From Oceanibaculum nanhaiense (lineage in GTDB: Bacteria > Pseudomonadota > Alphaproteobacteria > Oceanibaculales > Oceanibaculaceae): DNA of 64,000 nucleotides. The notes below the pieces were generated by a model that saw only the letters and a list, made by a program, of their open reading frames with translations, had not been told where the DNA came from and made no database searches. The position numbers and the translations under genes are program-made. The stretch spans positions 239,023-303,022 of the forward strand of contig NZ_MPOB01000005.1 of assembly GCF_002148795.1 (NCBI RefSeq), written 5' to 3'. Positions 29,032 through 36,364 of the stretch are shown in pieces. Numbering within the stretch: the stretch's first letter is position 1; each line of letters begins with the position of its first letter.

Positions 29032-30249
29032 ATGTCGGTAAGTGAGCATAGAAGCATGCAGCGAGGAAATGCTGGCAGGTCGCCGCTTCTCAACGTCATT
29101 CTGAGCGGCGATTCCAGTCTTGCCCTCAATATCCCGAAGATGATGCTGCGCGGCGAGCCGCCAGTCTTTAAGAACCGCTTTCTGAACAATTGCGTAATCT
29201 TCAAATATCCGAATTTCGAGGTGCCGACGAACGAAACCGGTCTCGAGGGCATGTACGATTCGGACACGGAAGAGGCGGAATTCTACAAGCCGGTGGAAAC
29301 CGCGATCTACATCCCGAACGACCATCGTGACCTTGCCGCCGGCGGGTCCGCGATCTATCTGCGGCAGCGCGATTTCGATGCGCTGATGAACGAGATTTTC
29401 GGCATCAAGGTCGATGCCGATCTCGACGAGCTGTACAACGACATCCAAATGCTGCGCATCATCGATGAGGTGCCGTCCCTCGATCCCTATCTGCTGCGGA
29501 CCGAATTGTCGGACTCCGGCTACAAGATGCCGGAAACGGCGTTCCAGACCACGGAACAGGAAGACCGCAAGATCCGCCGGCGCATCGAATCGAAGATCGA
29601 GCCCATTCTGAACCGGGCGATTCAGGATGCCGGCGGTGACGCCAATATCAGCCTCGCGCAGAAGCAGCGCTTCCTGAAGGTGCTGTGGAACCCCGATCTG
29701 CCGGAAGCGGAAATCTTCATCAAATCCTTCGGCATCGAACGGTCGCAGACCGGTGCCATCTTTACGGCCTGGAAGGGAATCACCTTCTACCAGATCCAGT
29801 TCGAGGGCATTGCCGGCTCCCTGCGCAAGGTCTTCAACTATCTGAAGGGCCGCAATCTGGTGCCGCTGGATCAGCGGCTGTACAGCGGCACCGATATCGA
29901 ACTGCTGAACGCGAAGGTGGCGAAACTCTACTCGCGGCTGCGTGACGCGGTGGATAAGTGCCGCAATATTTTCGCTGCCTATGACGAGGCCTATACATGC
30001 TTTGTCGAAAAGAACGATGCACGGCAGTTCAAGCACTTCCTGATGAGCGCTCATCAGAATTACTGGGTGCTCGGCTTCTCGATCATCGCCTGCAAGAACG
30101 CCTTCGAGCGGATCCGGAAATACACCCCCCTCGATAAGCCGCTGTCGCTGCGTTTCGACACGATCCTGAAAATGCTGGACGAGGTCAGCATCATCTTTGG
30201 CCGCGGCGACGGCAAGCAGGGCATCGATAATCATCTGGAATGGACCTAG
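29032..30249 (+). CDS. Conserved-looking protein of unknown function
   Basis: A 405-residue soluble protein without signal peptide or membrane segment that I do not recognise. It reads as a real gene: GC-rich third positions, balanced composition and a full-length frame preceded by an AT-rich gap (28938-29031). Visible features are the early L-N-V-I-L-S-G-D-S-S-L-A-L-N, Y-I-P-N-D-H-R-D-L-A, a charged central region (about 165-215), and a mostly helical second half with several aromatic-rich helices such as Y-W-V-L-G-F-S-I-I-A-C-K-N-A-F. The ATG at 29032 lacks a strong Shine-Dalgarno. Confidence 0.75.
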   Translation: MSVSEHRSMQRGNAGRSPLLNVILSGDSSLALNIPKMMLRGEPPVFKNRFLNNCVIFKYPNFEVPTNETGLEGMYDSDTEEAEFYKPVETAIYIPNDHRDLAAGGSAIYLRQRDFDALMNEIFGIKVDADLDELYNDIQMLRIIDEVPSLDPYLLRTELSDSGYKMPETAFQTTEQEDRKIRRRIESKIEPILNRAIQDAGGDANISLAQKQRFLKVLWNPDLPEAEIFIKSFGIERSQTGAIFTAWKGITFYQIQFEGIAGSLRKVFNYLKGRNLVPLDQRLYSGTDIELLNAKVAKLYSRLRDAVDKCRNIFAAYDEAYTCFVEKNDARQFKHFLMSAHQNYWVLGFSIIACKNAFERIRKYTPLDKPLSLRFDTILKMLDEVSIIFGRGDGKQGIDNHLEWT

Positions 30250-30343
30250 CCCAGGGATCTAACCCAGCAGGCCACGCATTGCCGCGGCGGTTTCCGTGTC
30301 GGCGAGGATCACAAGGCGACGGATATCCTCGCCGGATAGCCGG

Positions 30344-32167
30344 TTACTCCACCGTCACGGATTTGGCGAGGTTGCGCGGCTGGTCCACGTCGGTGCCCTT
30401 GATGACGGCGACATGGTAGGCCAGCAGCTGCACCGGGATGGCATAGAGGATCGGCGCCACGAAGGGGTGGACATGCGGCAGTTCGATGGTGGCGAAGGCC
30501 TCCTTGCCGATATGGGCGCAGCCCTTGGCGTCGCTCATGAAGATCACCTTGCCGCCGCGCGCCATCACCTCCTGCATGTTGGAGAAGGTCTTCTCGAACA
30601 GCGCGTCGCTGGGGGCGATGACGATGACCGGCACCGTATCGTCGATCAGCGCGATGGGGCCGTGCTTCAGCTCGCCCGCCGCATAGCCCTCGGCATGGAT
30701 GTAGGAGATTTCCTTCAGCTTCAGCGCCCCTTCCAGCGCGATGGGGTAGCCGGTGTTGCGGCCGATATAGAGCACGTCGCGCGCTTCCGCGACTTCGGCC
30801 GCCAGCGCCTGGATCGCCTCGTCGCCGTTCAGTACCTCGGCGGCACGCGAGGGCACCTCGGCGATGGCGTTGGACAGCCGCGCTTCCTCCGCCCCGGAGA
30901 TCGCGCCGCGTGCCCGCGCCGTGGCGATCACCAGGCAGGCCAGCAGCACCAGCTGGCAGGTGAAGGCCTTGGTCGAGGCGACGCCGATCTCCGGCCCGGC
31001 CAGCGTCGGCAGCACGGCGTCCGCCTCGCGCGCCATGGTGCTTTCCGGCACGTTCACGATGGCGATGGTCTTCTGCCCCGCCGCCTTGGCGTGGCGCAAG
31101 GCGGCCAGCGTGTCGATGGTCTCGCCCGATTGCGAGATGAAGATGGCCAGGCCGCCTTCCTCCAGCGGTGTGTCGCGGTAGCGGAATTCCGAGGCGATAT
31201 CGATGTCGGCGGCGATGCGCGCCACCTTCTCGAACCAGTATTTCGCGACCATGGCCCCCAGATAGGAGGTGCCGCAGGCAACCAGCGTGATGCGGCTGAT
31301 GGCGGCAAGGTCGATATCGAGCGGCGGCAGGTCGATGGCGCCGCTGGCCGGGTTCCACATGCTGCGCAGCGTGTCGCCGATGACGCCCGGTTGCTCGTAG
31401 ATCTCCTTCAGCATGAAGTGCGGGTAGTTGCCCTTGCCGATCATCGCGCCGGACTGTGCGGTCGGTTTGGCCGGACGATCCACCACGCGGTCCTGCTCGT
31501 CATGGAAAATGGCGCCGGCGCGTGACAGCTCGACCCAGTCGCCCTCCTCCAGATAGGAGATGCGGCGCGCGAAGGGGGAAAGCGCCAGCGCGTCGGAGCC
31601 GAGGAACATCTCGCCCTCGCCCCAGCCGACGGCCAGCGGGCTGCCCTTGCGGGCGCCGACGATCAGGTCATGCTCGCCCCTGAACAAGATCGCCAGCGCA
31701 TAGGCGCCGTCCATGCGCTTGATCGCCGTGGATACCGCCTGCTGCGGCGTCATGCCCTCGTTCAGATAGCGGGTGATGAGGTGGGCGGCGATTTCCGAAT
31801 CGGTTTCGCTGGCGAAGACATGGCCCAGCGCCGACAGCTCCGCCGCCAGCTCGCGGTAATTCTCGATGATGCCATTATGCACCAGCGCCACCTTGTCGGT
31901 GGCGTGCGGGTGGGCGTTGCGCTCGTTCGGCACGCCATGCGTGGCCCAGCGCGTGTGGCCGATACCGATATCGCCATGGATGCCGTTCCCGGCGACGCGC
32001 TCCTCCAGCCGGGCGATCTTGCCCTCGCTACGGCGGCGCTCGATGCTGTCATTCACCAGCGTGGCGATACCGGCGGAATCATAGCCGCGATATTCCAGCC
32101 GCTTCAGCCCCTCGATCAGAGAGGGGACCACATCGGTCTTGCCGACCACGCCGATGATTCCGCACAT
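30344..32167 (-). CDS. glmS: Glutamine-fructose-6-phosphate aminotransferase GlmS
   Basis: Makes glucosamine-6-phosphate from fructose-6-phosphate and glutamine, the first step to UDP-GlcNAc; the product is used by GlmM (5643-7010). The N-terminal glutaminase domain starts M-C-G-I-I-G-V-V-G with the catalytic Cys2 and has G-H-T-R-W-A-T-H-G and H-N-G-I-I-E-N. Two SIS domains follow: A-C-G-T-S-Y, S-Q-S-G-E-T, G-R-N-T-G-Y and E-L-K-H-G-P. It ends with the typical L-A-K-S-V-T-V-E. At 607 residues it is full length. No glmS ribozyme is evident in the 5' region. Confidence 0.98.
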   Translation of the reverse strand: MCGIIGVVGKTDVVPSLIEGLKRLEYRGYDSAGIATLVNDSIERRRSEGKIARLEERVAGNGIHGDIGIGHTRWATHGVPNERNAHPHATDKVALVHNGIIENYRELAAELSALGHVFASETDSEIAAHLITRYLNEGMTPQQAVSTAIKRMDGAYALAILFRGEHDLIVGARKGSPLAVGWGEGEMFLGSDALALSPFARRISYLEEGDWVELSRAGAIFHDEQDRVVDRPAKPTAQSGAMIGKGNYPHFMLKEIYEQPGVIGDTLRSMWNPASGAIDLPPLDIDLAAISRITLVACGTSYLGAMVAKYWFEKVARIAADIDIASEFRYRDTPLEEGGLAIFISQSGETIDTLAALRHAKAAGQKTIAIVNVPESTMAREADAVLPTLAGPEIGVASTKAFTCQLVLLACLVIATARARGAISGAEEARLSNAIAEVPSRAAEVLNGDEAIQALAAEVAEARDVLYIGRNTGYPIALEGALKLKEISYIHAEGYAAGELKHGPIALIDDTVPVIVIAPSDALFEKTFSNMQEVMARGGKVIFMSDAKGCAHIGKEAFATIELPHVHPFVAPILYAIPVQLLAYHVAVIKGTDVDQPRNLAKSVTVE

Positions 32168-32327
32168 GCCTGAAACCGCTCCTGGAAACTATGAAAACAG
32201 GCCGCCGGGTGAGGGGGCGGCGTCAGGCTAGGACCATGCACGAGAACGCAGCGGGAGACGAATCACAAATTGTATCAAGCTGTTGCAGGCTGCCTGTTGG
32301 CTAAAAACATGATTAATAAAAAATGAA

Positions 32328-32356
32328 TTGCCTATAAAATACATTTTATCTAAAGT
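32328..32356 (+). promoter_or_regulatory. Sigma-70-like promoter with operator-like palindrome
   Basis: TTGCCT (32328-32333) and TAAAGT (32351-32356) are separated by exactly 17 bases. The spacer contains the perfect inverted repeat ATAAAAT-AC-ATTTTAT at 32334-32349, which could bind a repressor. It lies in a strongly AT-rich island about 50 bases before a small gene. The pattern is seen directly; activity is inference. Confidence 0.55.
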
Positions 32357-32366
32357 TACATTAGAG

Positions 32367-32385
32367 CGTGCGAGAAAACCGCACG
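32367..32385 (+). other. Leader hairpin before the 65-residue protein gene
   Basis: CGTGCG at 32367-32372 pairs with CGCACG at 32380-32385 with a 7-base A-rich loop, inside the predicted 5' leader and about 10 bases before the Shine-Dalgarno. It may affect transcript stability or translation. Confidence 0.4.
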
Positions 32386-32406
32386 ATATAGGATATGGAG
32401 AAAGCC

Positions 32407-32604
32407 ATGTCTCAGATCGGCTTCGTTTATCAATCTATGGCAACGGTGGCGCAGGCCAGCGTTACTAGCATGTACGCCAATCTCGATAATATCAATCAGC
32501 TGCGCCAGCAGCTCAGCGAGACTGTGTCCCCCCAGGCTGCAGAGGCGCCGGCGCCTGTCGCGGCGTCGTCTGGCACGGAAGGCCGTGTGGATATCACTGT
32601 CTGA
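32407..32604 (+). CDS. Small uncharacterised protein (65 residues)
   Basis: The sequence runs M-S-Q-I-G-F-V-Y-Q-S-M-A-T-V-A-Q-A, then a predicted amphipathic helix (residues 10-42), then an Ala/Pro-rich stretch and a short strand-like end (G-R-V-D-I-T-V). There is no signal peptide, membrane segment or cysteine. GGAG at 32397-32400 is well placed for the ATG at 32407, so the upstream in-frame ATG at 32395 is probably not used. A promoter-like sequence lies 50 bases upstream and a terminator 70 bases downstream, so it looks like a true single-gene unit. The function is unknown. Confidence 0.72.
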   Translation: MSQIGFVYQSMATVAQASVTSMYANLDNINQLRQQLSETVSPQAAEAPAPVAASSGTEGRVDITV

Positions 32605-32671
32605 TTACGGCCCCCCGGATACAGCGCCCGTAATTCTCCGTTCTTCTGGCCCTCTCCTTCGAACGCAATAA

Positions 32672-32707
32672 CGCCGCAGGGTTTTTCAACCGCTGCGGCG
32701 CTTTTTT
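32672..32707 (+). terminator. Rho-independent terminator after the small-protein gene
   Basis: CGCCGCAG at 32672-32679 pairs with CTGCGGCG at 32693-32700 across a 13-base loop, followed by CTTTTTT. It lies between the small gene and the convergent prpB, and mainly serves the plus-strand transcript. Confidence 0.85.
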
Positions 32708-32737
32708 GTGCGAAACGGCCAGCCTGAAATGGCCGGA

Positions 32738-33643
32738 TCAGGATGGCAGGACCGTCGCAACGATGGAGGCGTCCAGCGCTTCGTACTTGGCAAGGTCGAT
32801 GGTGTCGTACAGTTCGGCGCGGGTCTGCATCTCGCCGGCCATCGCCTCGGTCGAGCCGTTCTGCTTCAGCGTGGCGTACAGCTTTTCCTGCGCCTTGTTG
32901 GCGACGCGCAGGCTGCTGACCGGCCAGATCACCATGCGGTAGCCCATCTCCTCGAATTCCTGCGCGGTGAAGAAGGGCGTGCGGCCGAACTCCGTCATGT
33001 TGGCCAGCAGCGGCACGCCGGGCATGCGCTGGGCGAATTCGCGGAACATCTCGGCACTGTTCAGCGCCTCCGGGAAGATCGCGTCGGCGCCGGCTTCCAT
33101 GTAGAGCTTGGCGCGGGCGACCGCCCCGTCCATGCCCTCGCTGGCCGCCGCATCGGTGCGGGCGATGATGTAGAGGTTGCGCCGGGCCTTCGCGGCGGCG
33201 GCGACCTTGGCCGCCATGTCGTGGGCATTGGCCAGCTTCTTGTCGTTCAGATGGCCGCATTTCTTCGGCAGCAGCTGGTCCTCGATATGCACGGCACCGG
33301 CGCCGGCATCCTCGAAGCTGCGCACCATATGCATGACGTTCAGCGCCTCGCCATAGCCGGTGTCGCCGTCCACCAGCACCGGCCGGCCGCTGGCGCGGGC
33401 GACCTGGCGGATGAAGAAGCACACCTCGTCCACGGTGATGATGCCGAGATCGGGGATGCCCATCGAGGCGGTCATCGCCGCCCCCGACAGGTACAGCGCC
33501 TCGAAACCGGCCTTGCTGGCCTGCAGCGCCGCCATGCCGTTATGGGTGCCGGGAATGCCGAGGATGCCAGGGCTCTCGACCAGCTTGCGAAAGCGCTGGC
33601 CGGCCGGTTCGGCCGGCAGATCGTCGGCGATCAGATAGGGCAT
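32738..33643 (-). CDS. prpB: 2-methylisocitrate lyase PrpB
   Basis: Cleaves 2-methylisocitrate to succinate and pyruvate, the last methylcitrate-cycle step. It is a member of the isocitrate lyase/PEP mutase superfamily. Visible are V-D-G-D-T-G-Y-G-E-A near residue 93, H-I-E-D-Q-L-L, the catalytic-loop motif P-K-K-C-G-H (about 125-130), I-I-A-R-T-D-A-A, and N-M-T-E-F-G-R-T-P-F. The 301-residue length fits PrpB. It follows prpC by 10 bases. Confidence 0.93.
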   Translation of the reverse strand: MPYLIADDLPAEPAGQRFRKLVESPGILGIPGTHNGMAALQASKAGFEALYLSGAAMTASMGIPDLGIITVDEVCFFIRQVARASGRPVLVDGDTGYGEALNVMHMVRSFEDAGAGAVHIEDQLLPKKCGHLNDKKLANAHDMAAKVAAAAKARRNLYIIARTDAAASEGMDGAVARAKLYMEAGADAIFPEALNSAEMFREFAQRMPGVPLLANMTEFGRTPFFTAQEFEEMGYRMVIWPVSSLRVANKAQEKLYATLKQNGSTEAMAGEMQTRAELYDTIDLAKYEALDASIVATVLPS

Positions 33644-33653
33644 ACTGTTCTCC

Positions 33654-34838
33654 TCAGGCTTTCTTTCCGGCGGCCTTCTTCGCGGCCTTCTTGCCGCGCT
33701 GGCCGATCGGCACGAAGGTCAGATTCTCCGGCCCGACATAATTGGCCGACGGGCGGATGATCTTGTTGTCGGTGCGCTGCTCGATGATGTGCGCCGCCCA
33801 GCCGGAGGTGCGGGAGATCACGAACAGCGGCGTGAACATCGCTGTCGGCACACCCATCAGGTGATAGGAGACGGCGCTGAACCAGTCGAGGTTCGGGAAC
33901 ATCTTCTTCACATCCGCCATCACCGTCTCGATGCGCGCGGCGATGTCGAACATCTGCATCGACCCGGCTTCCTTCGACAGCTTGTGGGCGACGCGCTTGA
34001 TCACCTCGTTACGCGGGTCCGACACGGTATAGACCGGATGGCCGAAGCCGATGATGACCTCCTTCGCCGCGACACGGGCCCGGATGTCGGCCTCCGCCTC
34101 GTCGGCATCGGCATAGCGCTGCTGAATCTCGAAGGCGGCCTCGTTGGCGCCGCCATGCTTCGGCCCGCGCAAGGCGCCGATGGCACCGGCGACGGCTGAA
34201 TACATGTCCGACCCGGTGCCGGCGATGGAGCGTGCGGTGAAGGTCGAGGCGTTGAACTCGTGCTCGGCATAGAGGATCAGCGAGGTCTGCATCGCCCGGA
34301 TATGCGAGGCCGAGGCCGGCTTGCCGTGCAGCAGGTGCAGGAAGTGCGCGGCGATGCTGTCATCGTCGGTCTCCAGATCGATGATCTGGCCGCGATGGGC
34401 GTAGTGGTACCAGTAGAGCAGCATGGACCCCAGCGAGGCCATCAGCCGGTCGGCGATGTCGCGCGCCGCCGGATGGTTGTGGTCATGCGCTTCCGGCAGG
34501 ACGCAGCCCAGCGCGGAGACGCCGGTACGCATCACGTCCATCGGATGCGCCGAGGCGGGGATCGCCTCCAGCACGTCCTTCACCGCCGCCGGCAGGGCGC
34601 GCATGGCCTTCAGCTTGGTCTTGTAGGCATCGAGCTGGGCCTGCGTCGGCAGGCTGCCATGCACCAGCAGATGGGCGATTTCCTCGAACTCGCAGCTCTC
34701 CGCGATGTCCAGGATGTCGTAGCCGCGATAATGCAGGTCGTTGCCGGTGCGGCCCACGGTGCACAGCGCGGTGTTGCCGGCGGTGACGCCGGACAGCGCC
34801 ACCGATTTCTTCGGCTTGAAGGTCGGATTTTCCGCCAT
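33654..34838 (-). CDS. prpC: 2-methylcitrate synthase PrpC
   Basis: Condenses propionyl-CoA with oxaloacetate. It is a citrate-synthase-fold protein of 394 residues, short like other PrpC. Visible are [10 protein letters not shown], the first active-site His region [34 protein letters not shown] and the late R-T-S-G-W-A-A-H. A lysine-rich tail ([12 protein letters not shown]) is an extra not needed for catalysis. GGGAGA precedes the ATG at 34838. Longer in-frame starts run into prpD. It lies between prpD and prpB. Confidence 0.95.
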
Positions 34839-34858
34839 GGTTGTGTCTCCCTTTTCCG

Positions 34859-36364
34859 TTATTTCCAGTCGAAGATGCCGGTCGGCCGGGGCGCGCCCAG
34901 CTTGCCGGCTTCGACGGTCACGTTGAGGGCGCTGAGGTCGCTGAGGGTGGCGAGCTTCTCGACCGCCTCCAGGAAGCGGTCCTGCTCGGCCGGGGCGACA
35001 ATACCTTCCGCCAGCGTGCGGAACTTGGCGATATATTGCGGCCGGGCGAAGGGCCGGGCGCCCAGCGGATGGGCGTCGGCCACGGCCAGCTCGTCGGTGA
35101 TGGTGGAGCCGTCCTCCATGGTCACCACGACGCGCCCGCCGAACGCCTTCTCCTTGGGATCGCGGGAATGGTAGCGCCGGGTCCATTCCGGGTCTTCCAG
35201 GGTGCTGATCTTGTGCCACAGCGCCACCGTGTCCGGGCGCTGCGCGCGCTCCGGAGCGTAGGAGCGCTCATGGTGCCAGCCGCCGTCCTGCAGCGCGACC
35301 GCGAAGATGTACATGATCGAATGGTCCAGCGTCTCGCGGCTGGCCTTCGGGTCCATCTTCTGCGGGTCGTTGGCGCCGGTGCCGATCACGTAATGGGTGT
35401 GATGGCTGGTGTGGATGACGATGCTCTTCACCTTGGCGAAGTCGCCGACCTTCGGGCCCATGCGGCGGGCCAGGTCGATCAGCGCCTGGCTCTGGTACTC
35501 CGCCGAATGCTCCTTGGTGTAGGTATCCATGATGGCGCGCTTCGGCTCGCCCTTCTCCGGCAGCGGCACCTGGTATTCCGCCTTCGGGCCGCTCAGCAGC
35601 CAGGCGATGAAGCCGTCCTCGCCCTCATAGGCCGGCGACGGGGCGCCCTCGCCACGCATCACCCGGTCCACCGCCTCGATCGCCATCTTGCCGGCGAAGG
35701 CCGGGGCATAGGCCTTCCAGCTGGAAATCTCGCCCTTGCGCGACTGCCGCGTGGTGGTGGTGACGTGCAGCGCCTGCTGGATCGCCTGATAGATGGTCTC
35801 GGCGGGCAGGTTCAGCAGCGCGCCAATGCCGCCGGCGGCGGACGGCCCGAGATGGGCGATATGGTCGATCTTGTGCTCGTGCAGGCAGATGCCCTTCACC
35901 AGATCGACCTGGATCTCGTAGGACGCCGCCAGCGCGCGGATCAGATCCTGGCCGTTGCGGCCGACATGCTGGGCGACGGCCAGCACCGGCGGGATATTGT
36001 CGCCGGGATGCGAATAATCGGCGGCGAGGAAGGTGTCGTGATAATCCAGCTCGCGCACTGCAACGCCGTTCGCCCAGGCTGCCCATTCCGGCGAGAAACG
36101 CTTGTCGGACGGCAGGCCGAACACGGTGGCGCCGGGGCTGTAGGGGTGCGCCATGGTCTGGGCGCGGGCACTTGCCACCGGACGGCGCGCCACCGAGGCA
36201 ACGGCGACCGAGGCATTGTCGATGATGCGGTTGCCGATCATCTCGGCGACATCGGCCTCTACCGGTACGGTCTCGGCGGCCATGGCGGCCATCTTCCAGG
36301 CCAGCTGGTCCTCGCGCGCGAGCTTCTCGGCGGATTTGTAGGTGCGAACGCTATGCGTCTTCAC
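34859..36364 (-). CDS. prpD: 2-methylcitrate dehydratase PrpD (MmgE/PrpD family)
   Basis: Dehydrates 2-methylcitrate to 2-methyl-cis-aconitate. At 501 residues it fits the family. Visible are [13 protein letters not shown] near residue 38, [16 protein letters not shown], and the [11 protein letters not shown] region. It is the second gene of the minus-strand group thioesterase-prpD-prpC-prpB, and its ATG overlaps the thioesterase end by 14 bases. No PrpR regulator is nearby. An aconitase-type hydratase (AcnD/AcnB) must be elsewhere. Confidence 0.93.

Follow-up and report, generated by a model that had tools for sequence, protein, structure and literature searches.

The frame for 65 residues at 32407-32604 of the window (the whole 64-kb stretch of DNA that was analysed) is very probably a true gene that stands alone, is restricted to its lineage and encodes a small soluble protein. 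Judged on its sequence, it behaves as a coding gene, with an orthologue in a second species of the genus (G003; the genome of the window itself is G000) and substitutions of the coding type between the two. This two-species comparison is strong evidence, and because of it we read the frame as a conserved small-protein gene and not as a random one. The initial annotation had arrived at a true regulated gene by another route, from the full packaging of the frame with a promoter, a palindrome, a leader hairpin and a terminator. That the gene is true was borne out by the orthologue and the coding-type changes, whereas the packaging argument taken alone is weak, because the promoter and the palindrome by themselves are near chance; the package exceeds chance because it is conserved in the second species. 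That the gene is regulated is plausible, given the palindrome and the leader.

Comparison within the genus and distribution

The small gene and its surroundings comprise the following features (positions are those of the window):

30344-32167, minus strand: glmS, divergent, on the upstream side (SIS and glutamine amidotransferase domains)
32303-32362, no strand: AT-rich island of 16.7% GC containing the putative promoter (from composition; the G003 copy is nearly identical)
32328-32333, plus strand: putative -35 element TTGCCT, from the sequence (43/43 bases of 32320-32362 are identical in G003)
32334-32349, no strand: perfect palindrome ATAAAAT-AC-ATTTTAT, a candidate operator inside the promoter spacer
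32351-32356, plus strand: putative -10 element TAAAGT, from the sequence (unchanged in G003)
32367-32385, plus strand: leader hairpin H1, CGTGCG-N7-CGCACG (-9.3 kcal/mol, z -4.3)
32391-32412, plus strand: second hairpin H2, from folding, with the start codon and some of the Shine-Dalgarno sequence within its stem
32397-32400, plus strand: Shine-Dalgarno sequence GGAG, six bases 5' of the ATG
32407-32604, plus strand: small-protein gene, 65 aa (open reading frame, G003 orthologue, substitution pattern)
32672-32707, plus strand: intrinsic terminator, stem 32672-32700 and T-run (from folding; stem kept in G003)
32738-33643, minus strand: prpB-like gene (PEP mutase/ICL family), convergent, on the downstream side, at the end of a prp-type cluster

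As it is flanked by the divergent glmS and the convergent prpB-like gene, the small gene is a separate plus-strand unit. Both neighbours lie on the opposite strand and are therefore uninformative on its function. The downstream neighbour we take to be prpB from its family and its own neighbours; the prp-type cluster also holds citrate-synthase-family and MmgE/PrpD-family genes. The organism would seem, by its gene content, to be an alphaproteobacterium. Close to glmS on its other side, a 405-aa frame on the plus strand (29032-30249) had no Pfam match at E 0.001. On the minus strand, 5' of glmS, sequence matching TTGATRCAA....TGATTCG (32258-32285) is kept in 4/4 genomes of the genus while the rest of the spacer has largely diverged, and it is probably a glmS promoter or control site.

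The G003 orthologue has 77% amino acid identity and occupies the equivalent place between divergent glmS and prpB. The non-coding core at 32303-32406, which contains the island, the palindrome, the hairpin and the Shine-Dalgarno sequence, is identical to G003 at 101/104 positions, compared to 107/135 (28 differences) in the spacer adjoining glmS at 32168-32302 (Fisher p 2.5e-5). In the spacer toward prpB, 59/133 positions are identical when gaps are scored as differences. Identity to G003 is 93.8% for glmS and 93.3% for prpB, and the core is therefore more conserved than its surroundings are on average; 104-base windows within glmS reach 103 identities (3.4-kb alignment). Within the frame, codons 1-36 (102/108 bases identical) carry five synonymous changes and one amino-acid change, with dN 0.012 and dS 0.26 (p 0.002, or p 0.016 when every change is treated as a transition). 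Codons 37-58, the linker, carry 5 synonymous and 12 amino-acid changes and one in-frame 3-bp gap (dN 0.52, dS 0.85), and two synonymous changes and one amino-acid change fall in the last seven codons (59-65). A conserved control region, a constrained helix and tail, a free linker and a kept terminator together make up the pattern of a working protein gene. As only two sequences exist, the conservation rests on one pairwise comparison.

When 59 genomes including G000 were searched, matches were obtained in two, G000 and G003. No orthologue was found in G001 and G002, which belong to the same genus, and a DNA search of both gave only short chance-level matches. In these two genomes glmS and prpB are on separate contigs and the frames adjoining them are different. 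As the genomes are 93% (G001) and 91% (G002) complete, the gene is probably, though not certainly, absent from the rest of them. The search for orthologues in close relatives that the initial annotation had suggested thus gave a divided answer, with a syntenic orthologue in one of the three same-genus genomes and no match in G001 and G002. By eye, glmS is divergent to two frames that resemble response regulators in both G001 and G002 (L025, L026), and the glmS-prpB junction is therefore a point of rearrangement in the genus.

A two-row profile searched against 385 genomes of the class at E 0.01 matched four, G000, G003, G289 and G295. We regard the matches in the last two as chance (E 0.0015-0.008 per genome, at three places): one place lies within a longer 183-aa frame, which we take to be another protein, one lies within a 168-aa frame that presumably resembles a respiratory-chain subunit, and one lies in an 85-aa frame on the strand opposite to a frame of 278 aa. 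Among 398 genomes of the phylum, only G000 matched at E 0.001; the class and phylum samples overlap and, being samples, cannot prove absence. Collections of genome contigs, viral contigs, phages and plasmids, in which records near the own genome were possibly left out, gave no match. So far, then, the gene appears to be restricted to the genus, with nothing convincing outside it in the sampled genomes and in the contig, phage and plasmid collections.

Promoter, leader and terminator

The sequence elements on which the initial annotation had built are present in the DNA. TTGCCT and TAAAGT stand at 32328-32333 and 32351-32356 with a spacer of 17, and the inverted repeat at 32334-32349 within this spacer is perfect. 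Around them lies the only place in the 64 kb (32303-32362) where 60-bp windows contain 10 or fewer G/C. The putative promoter agrees with the consensus at 8/12 positions; sites that score equally or better number 117 in the 64 kb on both strands, and shuffles of 32303-32406 contain a mean of 1.38 of them on one strand. Shuffling 32303-32406 gave a palindrome of this kind (arms of 7, spacer of up to 4) 88 times in 2000, and shuffling 32328-32707 gave one 208 times in 2000. A consensus scanner run over 30000-35000 did not call TTGCCT-N17-TAAAGT; its single promoter-like call was TTAATA-N16-TAAAAT at 32313-32340. Neither the promoter nor the palindrome, taken alone, rises much above chance.

Exact copies of the palindrome occur in G000 only at the small gene and in G003 at the equivalent place. 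When up to two mismatches were allowed, one extra site of differing sequence appeared in each of G000, G003 and G001, about as often as with a reversed control pattern, and a regulon of the palindrome was dropped. A promoter of the sigma-28 type (TAAAGTTA and then GCGAGAAA, like that of the flagellar sigma factor) was also dropped, as its second half fits poorly and two of the three flagellin genes of the own genome bear sigma-54-like sites instead (by eye). A further reason for dropping it is that TAAAGTTANNTTAG has a single occurrence in G000 and another in G003, each at the small gene, and is absent from G001 and G002.

The leader hairpin described in the initial annotation was recovered at 32367-32385, and its -9.3 kcal/mol was equalled by none of 200 shuffles. 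In G003 the stem letters of H1 are the same and one loop base is changed; this stretch has other pairing partners in the best 78-nt fold for G003, which does not retain H1. In its longer context the 78-nt leader fold is unremarkable (z -1.6). H2 (-9.5 kcal/mol, z -3.3) was matched in stability by 2/200 shuffles and is identical in sequence in G003. The mean unpaired probability of the start codon is 0.35 in G000 versus 0.02 in G003. An equal or lower value than that of G000 was found for 15 of 59 long frames, a set that includes antisense frames that are probably not genes; the pairing is thus not unusual, and the start-codon hairpin as a special switch was dropped. An alternative ATG at 32395 would give a protein of 69 aa, with the Shine-Dalgarno sequence placed worse.

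The terminator was likewise found as annotated, with a stem at 32672-32700 and a run of six T at 32702-32707 (-20.6 kcal/mol, 0/200 shuffles as stable). The longer fold of 32600-32720 is unremarkable (z -1.7). The consensus scanner did not call this terminator, whose stem carries a bulge, and its single terminator-like call in 30000-35000 was at 32498-32513 on the minus strand. In G003 the terminator sequence is different, yet a 12-bp stem and a T-rich tail are found on the same strand.

Could the unit be something other than a protein gene? It is quite unlikely that it serves mainly as a regulatory RNA of ~345 nt with a promoter of its own, a 5' hairpin and a terminator, the frame being secondary or the RNA having a dual function. 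The promoter and leader are indeed the best conserved part of the unit, the terminator is kept and the linker half of the protein is poorly conserved. On the other hand, synonymous changes outnumber amino-acid changes 5:1 in codons 1-36, the one gap is in frame, the Shine-Dalgarno sequence is well spaced and the tail is conserved beyond the diverged linker; moreover, Rfam covariance models matched no structured leader RNA in 32150-32750 up to E 1. That the frame arose by chance in the spacer and seems conserved merely through the closeness of the two species is extremely unlikely: the lack of a match in G001 and G002 and the near-chance promoter and palindrome would agree with it, but the adjacent spacer differs at 28/135 positions versus 3/104 in 32303-32406, and the substitutions are of the coding type. 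We therefore keep to the reading as a small-protein gene.

Predicted shape and possible action of the protein

From the two sequences, AlphaFold predicted a single helix at residues 3-39 and an unstructured remainder (mean pLDDT 71.7, pTM 0.41; block means 77, 86, 92 and 84 across residues 1-40, then 48, 47 and 64). The helix is thus predicted to lead into a disordered Ala/Pro linker, after which comes a conserved tail ending in DITV. The helix is amphipathic, its moment being matched by 55/5000 shuffles, and D27, R33 and E38 are its only charged residues. The highest mean hydropathy over 19 residues is 0.87, which is too low for a membrane span. That the protein has no known domain, as first annotated, was confirmed for the 65-, 69- and 64-aa forms, for which Pfam was empty up to E 10. 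PADLOC matched no defence family up to E 1, PHROGs gave two matches at E 0.14, too weak to make it a phage protein, and the best hit among solved structures had E 0.78.

As regards function, the best reading that we can infer is that of a small orphan protein, expressed from its own promoter, that acts as an adaptor or inhibitor. Beyond the existence of the gene, the mechanism is a tentative guess. RNA polymerase with the housekeeping sigma factor would start near 32363, and a repressor on the spacer palindrome may hold the promoter off in some conditions. H1 would shield the 5' end of a monocistronic mRNA of ~345 nt. The amphipathic, almost uncharged helix (~3-39) might self-associate or bind a partner protein, and the disordered Ala/Pro linker would tether it to the conserved DITV tail as a second contact, so that the small protein could act as an adaptor or inhibitor of a larger one. 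Doubtful, though conceivable, is a further proposal, in which the protein would be the founding member of a family confined to the genus, with helix and DITV contacts, a freely evolving linker, a regulator at the palindrome and possibly a restraint by the start-codon hairpin, and would control an envelope or motility protein.

The wider importance of the gene is modest. In this well-marked orphan the control region has diverged less than one half of the protein. Annotation that relies on known families would pass over such a gene, which is convenient material for asking how regulation is gained or retained by new small proteins.

Comparison with known small proteins

We considered whether the protein belongs, in diverged form, to the YjfB-type small motility proteins (PF14070) or is a helix related to flagellin or other flagellar axial proteins. 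In its available part, one paper (PMC11607428) counts YjfB as a small protein yet to be characterized and places it in a sub-module together with the flagellar sigma-28 gene. Alphaproteobacterial YjfB-like proteins are alike in length and layout, with an N-terminal helix (by eye in the members), a Pro/Ala-rich linker and a short conserved C-terminal tail with D; in several the tail reads G..(V/I)D(I/V)(S/T)V, and several members end in DISV or DISI. Unlike them, the 65-aa protein has no Pfam match, and a profile comparison with YjfB aligned 18 tail residues only, with a probability of 5.8%. On a ten-member YjfB-like profile it scored 6.6 bits, a value reached by 30/3000 full and 73/3000 segment shuffles, and the G003 orthologue scored 1.0 bit. 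In this test, which used ten alphaproteobacterial members only, 1744/3000 helix-only shuffles were equal or better, so the helix contributes nothing to the score and carries no common signal. PF14070 matched 12 of 289 genomes of the class at E 0.01, three of them above the cut-off, and gave no match in G000 at E 0.01; A4, searched against G000 in the kinship tests, also gave none, which by itself is uninformative.

As for flagellin, flagellar genes are present in the genome, and the NCBIfam model NF006489 (PRK08913) weakly matched both orthologues (E 0.002 and 0.003), aligning residues 8-45, or 8-46 in the orthologue, to profile positions 64-101. However, the 17.5 and 17 bits are far below the cut-off of 217. 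On a profile built from FlgL and the flagellins of the genome itself, the protein scored 5.4 bits, which 47, 45 and 22 of 3000 shuffles matched or exceeded; the alignment covers positions 225-262, a stretch other than that matched in NCBIfam. Scores on this profile and on the YjfB-like one were thus reached by only ~1-2% of full or segment shuffles. The three flagellin genes of the own genome lie at 11072-16182 of L055 (contig C3); the third has no obvious sigma-54-like site (by eye). The motif upstream of the other two, TGGCAC-N5-TTGC, which we assume to be sigma-54-like, is not visible at the small gene (by eye). The small gene stands beside glmS and the prp-type cluster, a neighbourhood without a link to flagellar genes. 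With its tests failed or marginal, a kinship with YjfB or flagellin is unsupported; it remains unproven from sequence and, in our view, is unlikely.

GlmS supplies amino sugars, and its gene is divergent to the small gene; together with its near size, the absence of a known domain and the promoter of its own, this could suggest that the small protein inhibits an enzyme of the cell envelope in the way of Caulobacter HfiA. Such a role is very unlikely, because the 35-residue central hydrophobic stretch of HfiA, as given in the available part of its description, has no counterpart in the 65-aa protein. HfiA of Caulobacter crescentus has 68 residues, is free of domains and is controlled in expression at its promoter, according to that part of the source (PMC3900383). 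The two proteins are thus alike in being domain-free, in their length of about 65-68 residues and in control at a promoter of their own; they are unlike in the hydrophobic centre, and the likeness is one of description only. By analogy with what that part of the source reports, HfiA may serve as a fair model of action for the orphan small adaptor or inhibitor that we prefer, rather than as a demonstrated relative.
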